A stretch of DNA of 64,000 nucleotides from Deltaproteobacteria bacterium (lineage in GTDB: Bacteria; Desulfobacterota; Binatia; UBA9968): NCBI GenBank assembly GCA_016193465.1, contig JACPSE010000023.1, positions 1 through 64,000 of the forward strand, written 5' to 3'. The number at the start of each line of letters is the position of its first letter. Within the stretch, counting starts at the first letter, position 1. Position numbers and translations under genes: made by a program. Shown here piece after piece: positions 28,865-63,063 of the stretch. The notes under the pieces are model-generated. The model was not told the DNA's origin. It did not search any database and worked only from the letters and a program-made list of their open reading frames with translations.

Positions 28865-29940
28865 GGTCTATTGATTCTTAAAATTGGCCTCAAGCTCCCT
28901 GAGAGCCCTCGCCATTGTTCTCGTGGGGCTCTCTCTCACGCGTCGGATCGCATTACCGACCGCACTATAATGCAGCCCTACCCGTTCTCCGATCTCTCTT
29001 AAACTCATTAAACAGTACCGGCGTAACAGATAACTCGCCAAATACCTGGGCTCCGTGTATCTCTGCCCTCTCCCGCTGATCTCTCCTCCCTCAATCCCAA
29101 AGTGTTTCCCGACTTCCCTCAACACATCCTCGGGCCTCGCCCCCACGATCTCCCTTATCCCGCTTAGTTCCTTTCTATCTCTCATACCCTTAAGGTACCT
29201 CTCCACCATCTCGTCCACAAATCCCTCCGAGCCAATCACTGCCTGCCCCCGCACTTCTTCCCATGGCGTCTTCACACCCTCTTTGATCCCCTCAAGGACA
29301 AATCCTCTGTAGCCCTTCTTGCCCTTGCTCCCAAAATAACTCAGCACCTCTTTAACCGTGAGCCATGGCGGAATGGCCGCTTTGCCCCCATAGGCCCTCA
29401 GACTGCTCCAACGATAAGCAAAAGGATTCTCAGATCTCCTTAAACGCCATGGATTCAAATGGATATAGCGGCTAAGCTCCAATAAATAAGATTCCCTGTC
29501 TACTAGGATAGCCTTATACCTGCCCTGAAAGAGATGTCCCACACGTCCGTGGCGACGATTAAATGACTGCGTGTAGACCCCGTTGAGGTAGCGCAACGCC
29601 CGATTAAGCTCTCCCCTAGGGGTCTCTACCAAGAGGTGATAATGATTCCCCATCAGCACGTAGGCATGAACTCGAAGATGAAACTGCTCCGCCGCTCGCC
29701 CAAGCAAGTCTAGAAACTTTCCGCGGTCTTGGTTGTCTCTAAAGATGGGTTTTTGCTCGTTGCCCCTGGAGGTGACGTGGTAGTAGGCTCCGGGATATTC
29801 AATCCGTAACGGGCGCGCCATGAAACAGTTGCCTATCAGAAACTAAAATAAGAATCAATAGACCTGACCCCCTAGACCAGACCCTTGTGACCCCCTAGAC
29901 CCTTGACCCCCTAGACCCCTTTACCCCAACGTAGGGGTAA
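28865..29940 (-). mobile_element. RAYT (Y1 transposase) unit with 16-bp inverted repeats and a distal REP-like hairpin
   Basis: GGTCTATTGATTCTTA (28865-28880) and TAAGAATCAATAGACC (29849-29864) are exact reverse complements; TTACCCC-AACGTA-GGGGTAA hairpin at 29921-29940. Confidence 0.7.
28868..29821 (-). CDS. REP-associated tyrosine transposase (Y1_Tnp/IS200-like) with C-terminal DnaA-like HTH
   Basis: MARPLRIEYPGAYYHVTSRGN; HAYVLMGNHYHLLVETP; RRYCLMSLREIGERVGLHYSAVGNAIRRV. Confidence 0.93.
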   Translation of the reverse strand: MARPLRIEYPGAYYHVTSRGNEQKPIFRDNQDRGKFLDLLGRAAEQFHLRVHAYVLMGNHYHLLVETPRGELNRALRYLNGVYTQSFNRRHGRVGHLFQGRYKAILVDRESYLLELSRYIHLNPWRLRRSENPFAYRWSSLRAYGGKAAIPPWLTVKEVLSYFGSKGKKGYRGFVLEGIKEGVKTPWEEVRGQAVIGSEGFVDEMVERYLKGMRDRKELSGIREIVGARPEDVLREVGKHFGIEGGEISGRGQRYTEPRYLASYLLRRYCLMSLREIGERVGLHYSAVGNAIRRVRESPTRTMARALRELEANFKNQ

Positions 29941-30083
29941 CCTCCATGTTCCCTTCTGCCCTACCTATCGGCTGACCGTTTAGACGAAAGGGAGTTAAAA
30001 AAATTTGGTATATTCAGGCTAACAAGACTGGCTAGTCCGGTTCCCCTGTAAGTTTGCAAGGATAATGCTACAATCCGTGCTGC

Positions 30084-45618: not shown

Positions 45619-45884
45619 TGTGGGAGATATTACTCTATACCAGGAAGGACTGCTGTCTCTGCGAGGAGATGAAAGAGATTGTTCGCAAAGTGGCAGGGGA
45701 GTTTCCTTTGGACGTGAAAGAGATTGACATAGACAGCGTGGCTGATCTTCAGGAGAAGTACGGCAGCGAAGTCCCCGTCCTCTTCATCAACGGCCGCAAG
45801 GCCTTTAAGGTCCGGGTGACGGAACGGGAGCTTAAAAAGAGATTAAAGAGATTGAGAAAGGAGGCGGTAGCAAGCAGCGGCTGA
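45618..45884 (+). CDS. glutaredoxin-family (DUF836-like) protein
   Basis: ILLYTRKDCCLCEEMKEIV; EVPVLFINGRKAF; TGATG coupling to upstream gene. Confidence 0.87.
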   Translation: MWEILLYTRKDCCLCEEMKEIVRKVAGEFPLDVKEIDIDSVADLQEKYGSEVPVLFINGRKAFKVRVTERELKKRLKRLRKEAVASSG

Positions 45885-45962
45885 GGTTTCCCAGCAGCTT
45901 TCTATCGAATCTGAAATGGGGCCTGAGCATCTTGGGGACGGTAAAAACATATTGCCTATCTC

Positions 45963-47165
45963 TTATTTCAACCGGTAGGTCGGATAAGCTTCGGTCTGCT
46001 GGTCAAACCATTCATCCGGCAGGTCGTGACCGATCCTTTTTCGTTTGGCTTCCCGATATACCGTAGGGACCAGAACCGCGAAGCGCACCACCGCCGCGCT
46101 CGCTCCTGCCGGTGACGGGCTGAAGGTGATCTGTTTGGCTTCGCTCCGCCCGACTGCTTGCCCCTCGACCAGATCGGTCAAGAACACTCGTTTGCTCGCA
46201 TACTTCTCCAACAGTCGCCACCCCGCCATGCGGTACCCGGTTTGTCCCCCTCGTTTTCGAGCAGCCAGTTTCGCTTCTTGAGGTTCACCCGTGGTCATGA
46301 GGGATGTGACAAAGTCTTTCGCCGCGTCATACTCGAGCGATCGCGGAAAAGTCCATGACACCACATCCGCCTTTTCAAGCATCCTGTCGTCGTATTCCGC
46401 CCCCGTCACGCAATACACGTGCGCTCCCTGTGCTACCCACGCGGGATCGAATGTAGGTTCCGCGGTATTTGTCGCGGAGATCACTATGTCCGCATCCCGG
46501 ACTGCCTCTTCCGCTGAAGAGACTGGTGTGATTTCTATTCCCAGCTGCTTCTTCATCTGTTCGGTGAAGTTAGACCGGCTTTTAGGGTTGGGACTGAAAA
46601 CTTTGACAGTCTTGATATCTCTCACCAAACAATGTCCCATGAGTACTGAGCGGGCCATCCAGCCGGCTCCGATCAGGCCGATAGACCGGGCATCCGTCCG
46701 CGCTAAATACTTGGCGTTGAGGGCGGCGACACCACCGACTCGTATCACTTGAACGTCGCGTTCCTGCACGATCGCTAACAGTTTGCCTGCTCGCATATCG
46801 AACAAGAACAACCACCCGCTCTTTTCACTGTCTTGCGGGTACCCGGGCTTTTGGCTGGTATCAGCGTTAAGCGTCTCGCCGAGCGGCGCGATCACTCGAC
46901 GCGGCATCCCAAACTGCTCAACGGTCACACTGACCCAAGAATTGAGACGTAGGATAGCTGTAGCGTCCACTAAGTCCAAAACCGGTCGCAGTCGAAGGGT
47001 GTAAACTCTTTCAAGCCCCTCAGCCTTGCCGACTTCTATGTTGCGTCCACCGTCCCATCGCACGAGCTGGCCCCGGCCTATTCGACGAGTACTCTCTTCT
47101 ACCGCCTCGAGGCATTTCTCCATGGTTAAAACCTGCACCACATCGTCGTTAGTCAGCAGAAGCAT
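45963..47165 (-). CDS. ornithine cyclodeaminase/mu-crystallin family protein
   Basis: SIGLIGAGWMARSVLMG; DADIVISATNTAEPTFDPAWVAQGAHV. Confidence 0.88.
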   Translation of the reverse strand: MLLLTNDDVVQVLTMEKCLEAVEESTRRIGRGQLVRWDGGRNIEVGKAEGLERVYTLRLRPVLDLVDATAILRLNSWVSVTVEQFGMPRRVIAPLGETLNADTSQKPGYPQDSEKSGWLFLFDMRAGKLLAIVQERDVQVIRVGGVAALNAKYLARTDARSIGLIGAGWMARSVLMGHCLVRDIKTVKVFSPNPKSRSNFTEQMKKQLGIEITPVSSAEEAVRDADIVISATNTAEPTFDPAWVAQGAHVYCVTGAEYDDRMLEKADVVSWTFPRSLEYDAAKDFVTSLMTTGEPQEAKLAARKRGGQTGYRMAGWRLLEKYASKRVFLTDLVEGQAVGRSEAKQITFSPSPAGASAAVVRFAVLVPTVYREAKRKRIGHDLPDEWFDQQTEAYPTYRLK

Positions 47166-47223: not shown

Positions 47224-47613
47224 CTAGGCCTGATCGCTATGCGCAGTATTATAAAGAGCGTTACGTAGCACGCGCCCCGGATGGGTTCCTGTAGGCTCGC
47301 CCCGCTCCAGCAACACCTGGCCGTTGACCACCGTATAGTGAATGCCTTCAGCTAGATCGCGCATCCACCACCTATTATTCAGGAGATCATGCACGACTTC
47401 TTGCTTTCCTGGTTTCACCGTATCGGGATTGAGGATGATGAGGTCTGCCGCGAGTCCCGGCTGCAATAGGCCGCGATCATAGATCCCGAAGGCCGAGGCC
47501 GAATCAAAGGTCAGACGGCGAACAGCCTGTTCGAGCGACATGATGCCCCGTTCTCGGACCCAATAGCCTAGGAGGCGTGTGCTGTAAATGATAAGAACTT
47601 GCTTTTTGACCAC
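47224..47613 (-). pseudogene. C-terminal remnant of a D-aminoacylase/Amidohydro_3-like protein
   Basis: LEQAVRRLTFDSASAFGIYDRGLLQPGLAADLIILNPDTV...VVNGQVLLERGEPTGTHPGRVLR; no N-terminal metal-binding domain. Confidence 0.7.
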
Positions 47614-47722
47614 AAGGTCGAAGAATCCTATTTTTCCCGCGACCGCGTACCGACGCAGCCCCTGAGAGCCTCATGTGACCGGCGGAAGGAGATCGGGCCG
47701 GCCCGGGTCAGCGTTTCGGACA

Positions 47723-47755
47723 GGACAATATCCGATAAGGAGGCGTTATGTCAAC
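47723..47755 (+). repeat. copy A of 33-bp motif (RBS and ATG of RAYT remnant)
   Basis: GGACAATATCCGATAAGGAGGCGTTATGTCAAC; 29/33 identical to reverse complement of 62889-62921. Confidence 0.8.
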
Positions 47756-60666: not shown

Positions 60667-61125
60667 ATGAAGTTTGCTACCGACAAGATGCTGGGGAGGC
60701 TGGCCAAGTGGCTTCGAGTTATCGGGCAGGACGTGGCCTATGGCCCGCATTTGTCGGGCTACGGGCTGATCCGGGCGGCGCGCCGGGAGGGGCGATTGAT
60801 CCTGACGCGGGATCGCGCCCTTTCCAGGAAGAACCCGCCACATTACTTGCTGATCGAAAGCGATCAGTTTCGTGAACAGCTCAAACAGGTTGTCCGCGCC
60901 TGCCACCTGGACCCGTTCAAAGAAGCGTTTACGCGATGCGTGGAGTGTAACCGCCTGCTCGAGCCTGCAACGAAGGCGGTGGTCAGGGATAAAGTTCCCC
61001 CGTATGTCTTCTCCACGCAGGAGAGGTTTTCTCTCTGCCCGACCTGCCGGCGCATTTTTTGGCCAGCGACGCACCAGCAAAGGATGGTGGAGGAGCTGAA
61101 GGGTTTAGGGTTTGGAACCCGTTGA
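60667..61125 (+). CDS. Mut7-C RNase domain protein
   Basis: MKFATDKMLGRLAKWLRVIGQDVAY; ILTRDRAL; RCVECNRLLEPA; FSLCPTCRRIFW. Confidence 0.92.
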   Translation: MKFATDKMLGRLAKWLRVIGQDVAYGPHLSGYGLIRAARREGRLILTRDRALSRKNPPHYLLIESDQFREQLKQVVRACHLDPFKEAFTRCVECNRLLEPATKAVVRDKVPPYVFSTQERFSLCPTCRRIFWPATHQQRMVEELKGLGFGTR

Positions 61126-61144: not shown

Positions 61145-61180
61145 GTTAACATAATCGCGCGTTATCGGATACTTAACCCC
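61145..61180 (-). repeat. copy C of 33-36 bp motif
   Basis: GTTAACATAATCGCGCGTTATCGGATACTTAACCCC. Confidence 0.7.
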
Positions 61181-61287
61181 TTCTCCCTTCTTTCTCTCCG
61201 GTGACGACCCCGGGCACAGCCTTACAGCAGACGACAAGCTTTACGTTTGGATCTCCTTGGAGGTCACTGGCCGGCCTGTCTGCCAGA

Positions 61288-62781
61288 TCACAGGCAGGCG
61301 GCGTTCCTTCCGGCAATACGCCCTGTTATGGCACCCCGCATGAGACCGCCGCCGCTAGGGTAATTGTAATAGAAGAACCCCGCGGTCAGCTCTCCGGCCG
61401 CATAAAGACCGGAGATGGGCCGATCCAGTCGATTGAGCACCTGACACCGGGTGTTGATCTTCAAGCCCCCCAAAGTGAATGTGAGCCCACAGGTCGCGGC
61501 GTACGCCACAAAAGGCGCTGTATCAATCCTTTGGGCCCAGTTGGACTTAGGCGGCTGGATACCCTTTGTGCACTTCCCGTCGCGTATAATCTGGTCGAAA
61601 GGACGGTCCTCCGTAACAGCCTTGTTAAACTCCTCGACGGTTTGAACCAGGGCGTCCGGTTTGATCTCCAGCTTTTCCGCCAGCTCTCGAATGGAGTTGG
61701 CCACAATCGGTGTCGCCCCTTCGTAGAGGTGGCGAGCGACTGCCTCTTTGACTTTTTCATCAAAAATCTGATAGGCGATGCCTCCTGGCTGCTTCAGGAT
61801 CTCGCCACCCGTCTTCGCATAAGTGTAAGCGTGGAAATCCTCCCCTTCATCTAAAAAACGCCGCCCTTCGGTATTAACCATAATTCCGAGAGTCCAGCCA
61901 TAGCGGTGGGTTCTGTACCGGCGGTTGGCCGGGTCCAGGAATCCCCCCTCGTAGTCGCCAGCATCAGCGTCGATGGGAGTTGCATGGGTGCCGCTCCAGT
62001 GGCCGAAAGCCTGCGCTCCGATGTCCAACGCCATCTGGATTCCGTCGCCGGTATCGTACTTGGTGCCCCTAACCTTTGCCAGATCCCAGCCGCTTCCCAG
62101 GTACTGAGCGCGCAACGCAGGGCTCGCCTGGAAGCCGCCACAAGCAAGAACGACCCCTTTGCAGCGGACCTCAGCCAAGCCTTCGGGAGTTTGAACCACC
62201 ACGCCGCGAACCGCATTTTTCTCGTCCGTGATGAGACGAGCGGCGCCATTTTCGTAGCGGACTTCGATTCCCTTGCTCTGGAGAATACGGTGCCACATGT
62301 CCACCAAGCCAGCGCCGCCATCCTTGGAATGGATGAAGCTACTGCCGTGATGCCACCGAAAGCGGCCGCTTTCAGGCTTAGCATCCGTGTAGAGGATTTC
62401 CCATTGGATGCCTGATTCCCGCATCCACTTGACAGTGGGGTAGGATTCGTTCACCAGAAGCTCGGCCAGCTCCGGCACCGACCGTCCGCGGGTGACACGC
62501 ATGATGTCCGCATAAAAATCGTCTTTCGTATAGGGAGGAAGGTCGATCTTTTCCCATTCGCTTTCCGGCACATGCGGGAGGAGGGGTTTCACGTCGGGAA
62601 TCCCGTTATGGTAGTGGCGGAATTGAGCCCCATGGCTAAACCAAGTATTTCCCCCTCTCTTTTTTTCAGGAGCCTTTTCCAACACTATGACCTTGGCCCC
62701 GGTTTCATGAGCGGACGCTGCCGCAGCTTGGGCGGCGTTTCCCAATCCAACGACAACCACATCGCAGTCCAGCGTGGCCAT
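61288..62781 (-). CDS. FAD-dependent tricarballylate dehydrogenase-like flavoprotein
   Basis: DVVVVGLGNAAQAAAASAHETGAKVIVLEKAPEKKRGGNTWFSHGAQFR; C-terminal GLYAAGELTAGFFYYNYPSGGGLMRGAITGRIAG. Confidence 0.87.
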   Translation of the reverse strand: MATLDCDVVVVGLGNAAQAAAASAHETGAKVIVLEKAPEKKRGGNTWFSHGAQFRHYHNGIPDVKPLLPHVPESEWEKIDLPPYTKDDFYADIMRVTRGRSVPELAELLVNESYPTVKWMRESGIQWEILYTDAKPESGRFRWHHGSSFIHSKDGGAGLVDMWHRILQSKGIEVRYENGAARLITDEKNAVRGVVVQTPEGLAEVRCKGVVLACGGFQASPALRAQYLGSGWDLAKVRGTKYDTGDGIQMALDIGAQAFGHWSGTHATPIDADAGDYEGGFLDPANRRYRTHRYGWTLGIMVNTEGRRFLDEGEDFHAYTYAKTGGEILKQPGGIAYQIFDEKVKEAVARHLYEGATPIVANSIRELAEKLEIKPDALVQTVEEFNKAVTEDRPFDQIIRDGKCTKGIQPPKSNWAQRIDTAPFVAYAATCGLTFTLGGLKINTRCQVLNRLDRPISGLYAAGELTAGFFYYNYPSGGGLMRGAITGRIAGRNAACL

Positions 62782-62888
62782 AAATCTGTCTCCTCTCTGT
62801 GTTTTATTTCTAGTCGTCAAGCATCGTTCGACCTTTCTTTACCGCAATCGGGGGCCGATGTCCATCTCTACCTACAGATCGCGTCCCA

Positions 62889-62923
62889 GTTGACATAACA
62901 CGTCGTTATCGGATACTGTCCCC
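62889..62923 (-). repeat. copy B of 33-36 bp motif
   Basis: GTTGACATAACACGTCGTTATCGGATACTGTCCCC. Confidence 0.8.
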
Positions 62924-63063
62924 TCCCAAAAGGGTGGCTCAACGCTGCTTGCTGTCCCTAGAGACTGTCGGGTACCTTAAAGGACGTTTTTTACTGTTGC
63001 AGCGGGGGCTGTTTCCGACCTCTCGGCGACTGACCCTCAAAAGGAAGTCTCTATCACTAAAGA

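Follow-up and report, generated by a model that had tools for sequence, protein, structure and literature searches.

The motif standing on either side of a flavoprotein gene in the window (the whole analysed stretch of 64,000 nucleotides) is, with a probability of roughly 0.6, a conserved promoter-like core within the approximately 250-bp 3' end of a decayed IS91/ISCR-like family of Y2 rolling-circle elements, and at the same time a point of re-assortment between the sequences to its left and right. An earlier note had described a pair of 35-bp motif copies around this gene, and both are present in direct orientation (Table 1); the enclosed gene, called tricarballylate-dehydrogenase-like in the same note, matches the TcuA model NF006130 above its cut-off (E = 8e-152). 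A third match, reported on the reverse strand at 47723-47755, was likewise recovered, positions 47727-47754 carrying the full 28-bp pattern TTGACATAA-N7-TTATCGGATACT with one mismatch. The 13-bp core GTTATCGGATACT is exact at both flanking copies and has two mismatches on the reverse strand at 47727-47739.

Table 1. Motif copies, relics of the IS91-like element and genes of interest in the window
Feature	Position	Strand	Basis and remarks
IS91-like left-end relic just upstream of the intact RAYT gene (28868-29821)	29918..29988	-	91.5% over 71 bp
33-codon fragment of the IS91-like transposase	45868..45966	-	79% identity
3'-end relic (motif and M), adjoined on the left by a C-terminal RAYT fragment	47587..47754	-	
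Mut7-C RNase-domain gene, left anchor	60667..61125	+	Pfam PF01927, E = 4e-41
Motif copy 1	61145..61180	+	28-bp core at 61146-61173, 1 mismatch; core alone, E and M flanks absent; 20 bp past the Mut7-C stop
TcuA/tricarballylate-dehydrogenase-like flavoprotein gene	61288..62820	-	NF006130; probable ATG near 62781
Relic of the region that follows an IS91-like transposase stop; includes block E (TGTCC..., 62859-62889)	62839..62889	+	Similarity to other tails
Motif copy 2	62889..62923	+	Core at 62890-62917, 0 mismatches; promoter-like TTGACA-N16-GATACT, consensus match 10/12
Right-hand module M; its end CTCTATCACT is regarded as the IS91-like right end	62918..63058	+	Alignment

The motif is not restricted to this gene. 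In the 4.5-Mb genome of the organism itself, the 28-bp pattern occurs at least 22 times with at most one mismatch, as compared to no match for a reversed-pattern control, and chance can therefore not account for the copies; a slightly stricter pattern with up to three mismatches is found in at least 32 places in this genome and at least 34 in the relative G009 (control none). Within the class, 16 of 148 genomes carry the 28-bp pattern (at most one mismatch), all of them belonging to two related families, and again the reversed control gave nothing; all compared genomes are draft assemblies. Since viral contigs contain no exact match to the motif, a phage origin was dropped. The genome-wide search shows copies widespread beside unrelated genes, one of the refuting observations named in the earlier note, and this speaks against a motif pair specific for the flavoprotein gene.

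Aligning the copies together with their flanks revealed a larger repeat around the motif. Many copies are preceded by a degenerate protein C-terminus ending in SYSQLI and then by a block, here termed E, consisting of TGTCCAGCCC and about 20 further bp, while the right side closes in AAGTTCCTATCATT; for the majority of 47 units, the end block starts approximately 147 bp (within 2-3) from where the motif starts. On contig C93, an open frame of 415 codons without internal stop directly precedes block E, motif and the right-hand module M and encodes an IS91-family transposase (NF033538, E = 5e-51, 173.8 bits against a cut-off of 125; PF04986, E = 3e-24; PF14319, E = 2e-18). Both the Zn-binding and the Y2_Tnp domain of the IS91 family are thus found in the element that is the source of the repeats, the last residues of this copy being frameshifted relative to the family. 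The order of the element is transposase stop, short tail, block E, motif, module M of about 140 bp and right end TTCCTATCATT, the latter seen in most of the 47 units, and on this alignment evidence we assign the motif to an IS91-family 3' end, where it falls between the stop codon of the Y2 transposase and the right end. G025, which belongs to another family of the order, encodes a related transposase (80% identity), and E, motif and right end come after it in the same way. For four elements the left ends could likewise be aligned; their start lies close to GATAGGTAGG, some 205 bp ahead of the start codon, and GATAGGTAGG and the right end CCTATC match over a short stretch in inverted orientation. 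From the aligned left ends, the transposase and the right end, an element length of about 1.8 kb is therefore estimated. It should be noted that both ends were deduced from alignments rather than from an insertion paired with its own empty site; neither an intact pair of this kind nor a target sequence was found among the copies, and the flanks past the right end of the 47 units are mostly T-rich and varied.

Copies of the element in its own genome mostly are relics: at least 31 matches to one 3'-end query and at least 14 to the 5' end stand against a single Y2_Tnp among the matches listed. The M type of the window has one copy in the genome among the matches listed, and a 95% identical copy lies at another locus in G001. 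In the M modules of two other copies (L187 and L195), the same position holds an insertion of about 23 bp with a hairpin, CTGCCTGTGC..CGGCAGACAGG, which may be a small palindromic repeat in its own right. At L092 on contig C93, two IS91-like 3' ends in direct order enclose an ORF of 505 amino acids, a layout expected of a captured gene.

In its transposase domains and length, its single gene and its unlike ends, which are conserved among the copies, the element agrees with the IS91 family (NF033538, PF04986 and PF14319), and so does the occurrence of many copies with one end only. It departs from this family in having exchangeable M modules at its right end and in that nearly all copies here are fragments. 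The resemblance to ISCR1 concerns the layout, in which a HUH/Y2-type transposase gene is followed by a region of about 250 bp ending at the right end, beyond which variable genes stand, mostly in the direction of the promoter (PMC6218425). However, the transposase passes the IS91 family model and scores 135.5 bits with the ISCR clade Ia model, whose cut-off is 925; we therefore regard the element as one working like ISCR without filing it as a member of clade Ia. The right end TTCCTATCATT may resemble ISCR right ends, such as that in the oriIS of ISCR2, a likeness that was not counted as evidence.

The earlier note had explained the motif pair by RAYT mobilisation, the two copies framing a movable metabolic gene. 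The starting point of this proposal holds: the reverse-strand copy at 47723-47755 does lie at the start of an ORF of 128 amino acids (47748) resembling the C-terminal part of a RAYT, with 29% identity to the intact RAYT of the window (E = 3e-9), and this ORF abuts a 3'-end relic. At C133, a RAYT gene is located 257 bp downstream of a motif, and the short, dispersed and mainly intergenic nature of the repeats recalls REP sequences in a genome that also has RAYT genes (PMC2817692). Against these points, 17 of the 18 Y1_Tnp loci of the genome lack a convincing motif nearby (one of the 17 has a match with six mismatches), so that the repeat flanks a RAYT gene in one case; the motif copies adjoin unrelated genes; and neither the covarying palindrome of REP nor an association with RAYT loci was found (PMC2817692). 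Pairs compatible with a hairpin at the spacer edges were observed 48 times where 48.8 are expected, leaving no sign of compensatory changes, and M is devoid of the RNA structure known from REP hairpins. With the motif belonging to the 3' end of an IS91-family (Y2) element, RAYT/REP origin was discarded; mobilisation by RAYT is largely refuted and appears very improbable. A separate observation concerns the other end of the element: sequence of the IS91-like left end, TTCGTCTAAA..GATAGGTAGGGCAGAAGGGAA, is found with 91% identity over 55-71 bp immediately ahead of two RAYT genes (window 29918-29988 and L237), as a shared end or a relic.

The second part of our reading, re-assortment at the motif, is based on the independence of the two flanks. 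Copy pairs that are alike on the right (60 bp, at least 78%) mostly are at background level on the left and vice versa; two transposase tails on C93, for example, are 98% alike up to the motif and 54% beyond, and for L031 and L034 the values are 43% ahead of the motif and 97% past it. The points where similarity breaks off are concentrated at the edges of the motif, and at several loci the synteny between related genomes stops at the motif on one side. Since the sites were chosen by the motif, the motif itself looks conserved, an effect which leaves the independence of the flanks untouched. Divergence of non-coding DNA was excluded as the whole explanation for the loss of similarity by pairs that are 94-98% identical on one side. 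Comparison of the copies thus shows that left and right sequences of different copies were re-assorted at the motif. In detailed alignments the switch lies in or near the 7-bp spacer, which goes sometimes with the left and sometimes with the right side, a pattern that agrees with recombination within the short conserved arms on both sides and fits poorly with a recombinase in need of identical spacers.

Exchange at a short two-arm repeat could also be the work of a site-specific tyrosine recombinase (Xer/dif-like or another integrase), for which TTGACATAA and TTATCGGATACT would be half sites around the variable 7-bp spacer, flanks being swapped and segments like that of the flavoprotein gene moved as cassettes. 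Besides the re-assortment itself, arms ending in ATAA/TTAT around the spacer, direct motif copies bracketing a gene and the resemblance of one locus in G009 to an empty site speak for it, and the left arm of copy 1, TTAACATAA, is identical to the end of the XerD-type dif arm. Short two-arm repeats with a variable centre between swappable segments are also known from the dif modules of Acinetobacter, which are exchanged at pdif/Xer sites (PMC12907356, PMC6449649). Nevertheless, several pairs sharing the left side, and some sharing the right, have wholly different spacers (L190_1134/L214_1459, the L092 pair, L031/L034), although recombining Xer/dif sites are expected to be identical in their central region, and a fixed crossover in identical spacers is therefore disfavoured. 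The spacer measures 7 bp instead of the 6 bp of dif, and a dif-type pattern search of the draft genome yielded only two weak matches with three mismatches and did not identify a dif site of its own. In contrast to pdif sites, furthermore, the motif does not keep its spacers on exchange and lies within a transposon end. Taken together, we consider a recombinase core site unlikely. An integron was set aside, the GTTRRRY core being absent from the motif by eye.

Another explanation divides the repeat into two families, an IS91-like element with E as its right end having targeted, as a specific insertion site, the left side of a pre-existing mobile promoter unit M of 167 bp that starts with TTGACA. 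M occurs without E and E without M in some copies, and the two could be separate elements. The E tails of four copies (L045, L055, L057, L058) stop just before the place of TTGACA and continue into unrelated sequence; M modules have sharp edges of their own, on the left at TTGACA as well as on the right (L081 and L192, 90% over 167 bp); and tandem transposase tails that are 98% alike carry different M. This division is likewise unlikely, however, as the order of transposase, E, motif and M is kept in another family (G025) and part of the spacer of L031/L034, which agree to the right of the motif, goes with the left side, which is unexpected if M begins there. Unlikely as well is a further possibility, namely that the 28-bp motif actively serves the IS91-like transposase or a host recombinase as a site of recombination or strand transfer, with 167-bp promoter modules and whole genes exchanged as cassettes.

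As regards the promoter-like core, the next downstream ORF is co-oriented with the motif in 82 of 108 copies that have one (p = 6e-8), while the orientation of the upstream ORF is unbiased (51 of 108). Genes downstream belong to many unrelated families, by which a regulon promoter for one gene class was ruled out. In ISCR1, the 232-bp oriIS region contains two promoters that face outward and have been shown to drive the genes lying past it (PMC6218425), and by analogy the motif probably acts as an outward promoter for genes past the right end. The outward promoter of ISCR1 is sigma-70-like, compared to promoter-like sequence only in the present case, although this core is nearer to consensus than ISCR1 PCR1-1 (TAAACG-N17-TAAGAT) (PMC6218425); unlike in ISCR1, the core here coincides with the breakpoint, and the genes beyond are ordinary metabolic genes. 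Promoter use at motif copy 1 is unsupported, because this copy runs into the flavoprotein gene from its 3' side and no co-oriented gene follows. A structured RNA or riboswitch leader was rejected, the window containing no Rfam match and the M module giving no consensus structure with RNAalifold, with a mean folding-energy z of -0.2 over 40 units against shuffles. In one frame the motif reads VDITxRYRIL, but a coding repeat was dismissed as well, given that unit lengths vary by single bases, stops outside the motif are without frame bias and M is not coding.

The suggestion of the earlier note that the flavoprotein gene is movable is partly supported: relatives lack this gene in the corresponding interval between Mut7-C and tRNA-Asn. 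In relatives, the Mut7-C gene is syntenic with transglutaminase/ABC genes to its left (tblastn), and the same CoxL-type gene follows tRNA-Asn there and in the genome under study, where an insert of 5.4 kb separates Mut7-C from tRNA-Asn (contig position 66484). This insert comprises motif copy 1, the flavoprotein gene in reverse orientation, E with motif copy 2 and M, and the binding-protein and permease genes of an ABC transporter. With regard to empty sites, a search for which the earlier note had suggested, four genomes (G005, G006, G012, G018) have tRNA-Asn about 50 to 600 bp past Mut7-C with neither motif nor flavoprotein gene between, and in G009 and G016 a single motif directly follows Mut7-C, their left sides being 98% alike over 60 bp and their M different. 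The M of G009 at this locus is of the same type as that of the right copy in the window (94% over 67 bp), and the arrangement looks as an empty site would look, a convergent origin being possible. A single motif follows a Mut7-C fragment in G003. Synteny of the flavoprotein locus, checked in relatives, is not conserved, which counts for insertion. An 87% identical flavoprotein gene lies within an etf cluster in G007, where no motif was found, and the gene thus is independent of the motif and moves in other ways too. Close to their intact Mut7-C gene, G003 and G016 each have a further, incomplete copy of its 3' end (L103:5064-5174 and L106:4777-4884, respectively), the fragment in G003 being the one that runs into a motif copy, and group I introns (Rfam RF00028) interrupt the tRNA-Asn past Mut7-C in G009 (L105:5404-5663) and G005 (L109:3732-3997).

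The simplest reading of the locus is that the flavoprotein gene with its own E and motif came between an older motif after Mut7-C and the module M; insertion at a pre-existing motif site fits, and ectopic recombination as well as transposase action are candidate mechanisms. We propose an IS91/ISCR-like family of which decay has left dozens of fragments in this and related genomes and whose motif, reading outward, would serve as promoter for whatever stands past the right end. Exchange most likely took place when copies recombined ectopically within the stretch that they conserve best; alternatively, the transposase may treat the motif as a secondary nick or termination site. At the locus of the window, judging from a few relatives, the ancestral order would have been Mut7-C beside tRNA-Asn, after which a 3' end may have settled behind Mut7-C; placement of the flavoprotein gene to the right of this older motif would then have produced the two direct motif copies, with the ABC-transporter genes coming to lie beyond module M.

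IS91 and ISCR elements are blamed for the movement of resistance genes; to our knowledge, how their 3' ends pick up and switch on neighbouring genes has been poorly shown. The present family is a natural one, remote from any clinical setting; the promoter-like core that points outward from its 3' end is also the place where left and right sequences are re-assorted, and the related draft genomes offer many test cases. If the cassette reading were true, uncultured bacteria would possess a dispersed system of promoter-carrying cassettes with the flavoprotein gene as one cargo, and if the exchange is enzymatic, the capture of a new gene and its expression would be a single step.
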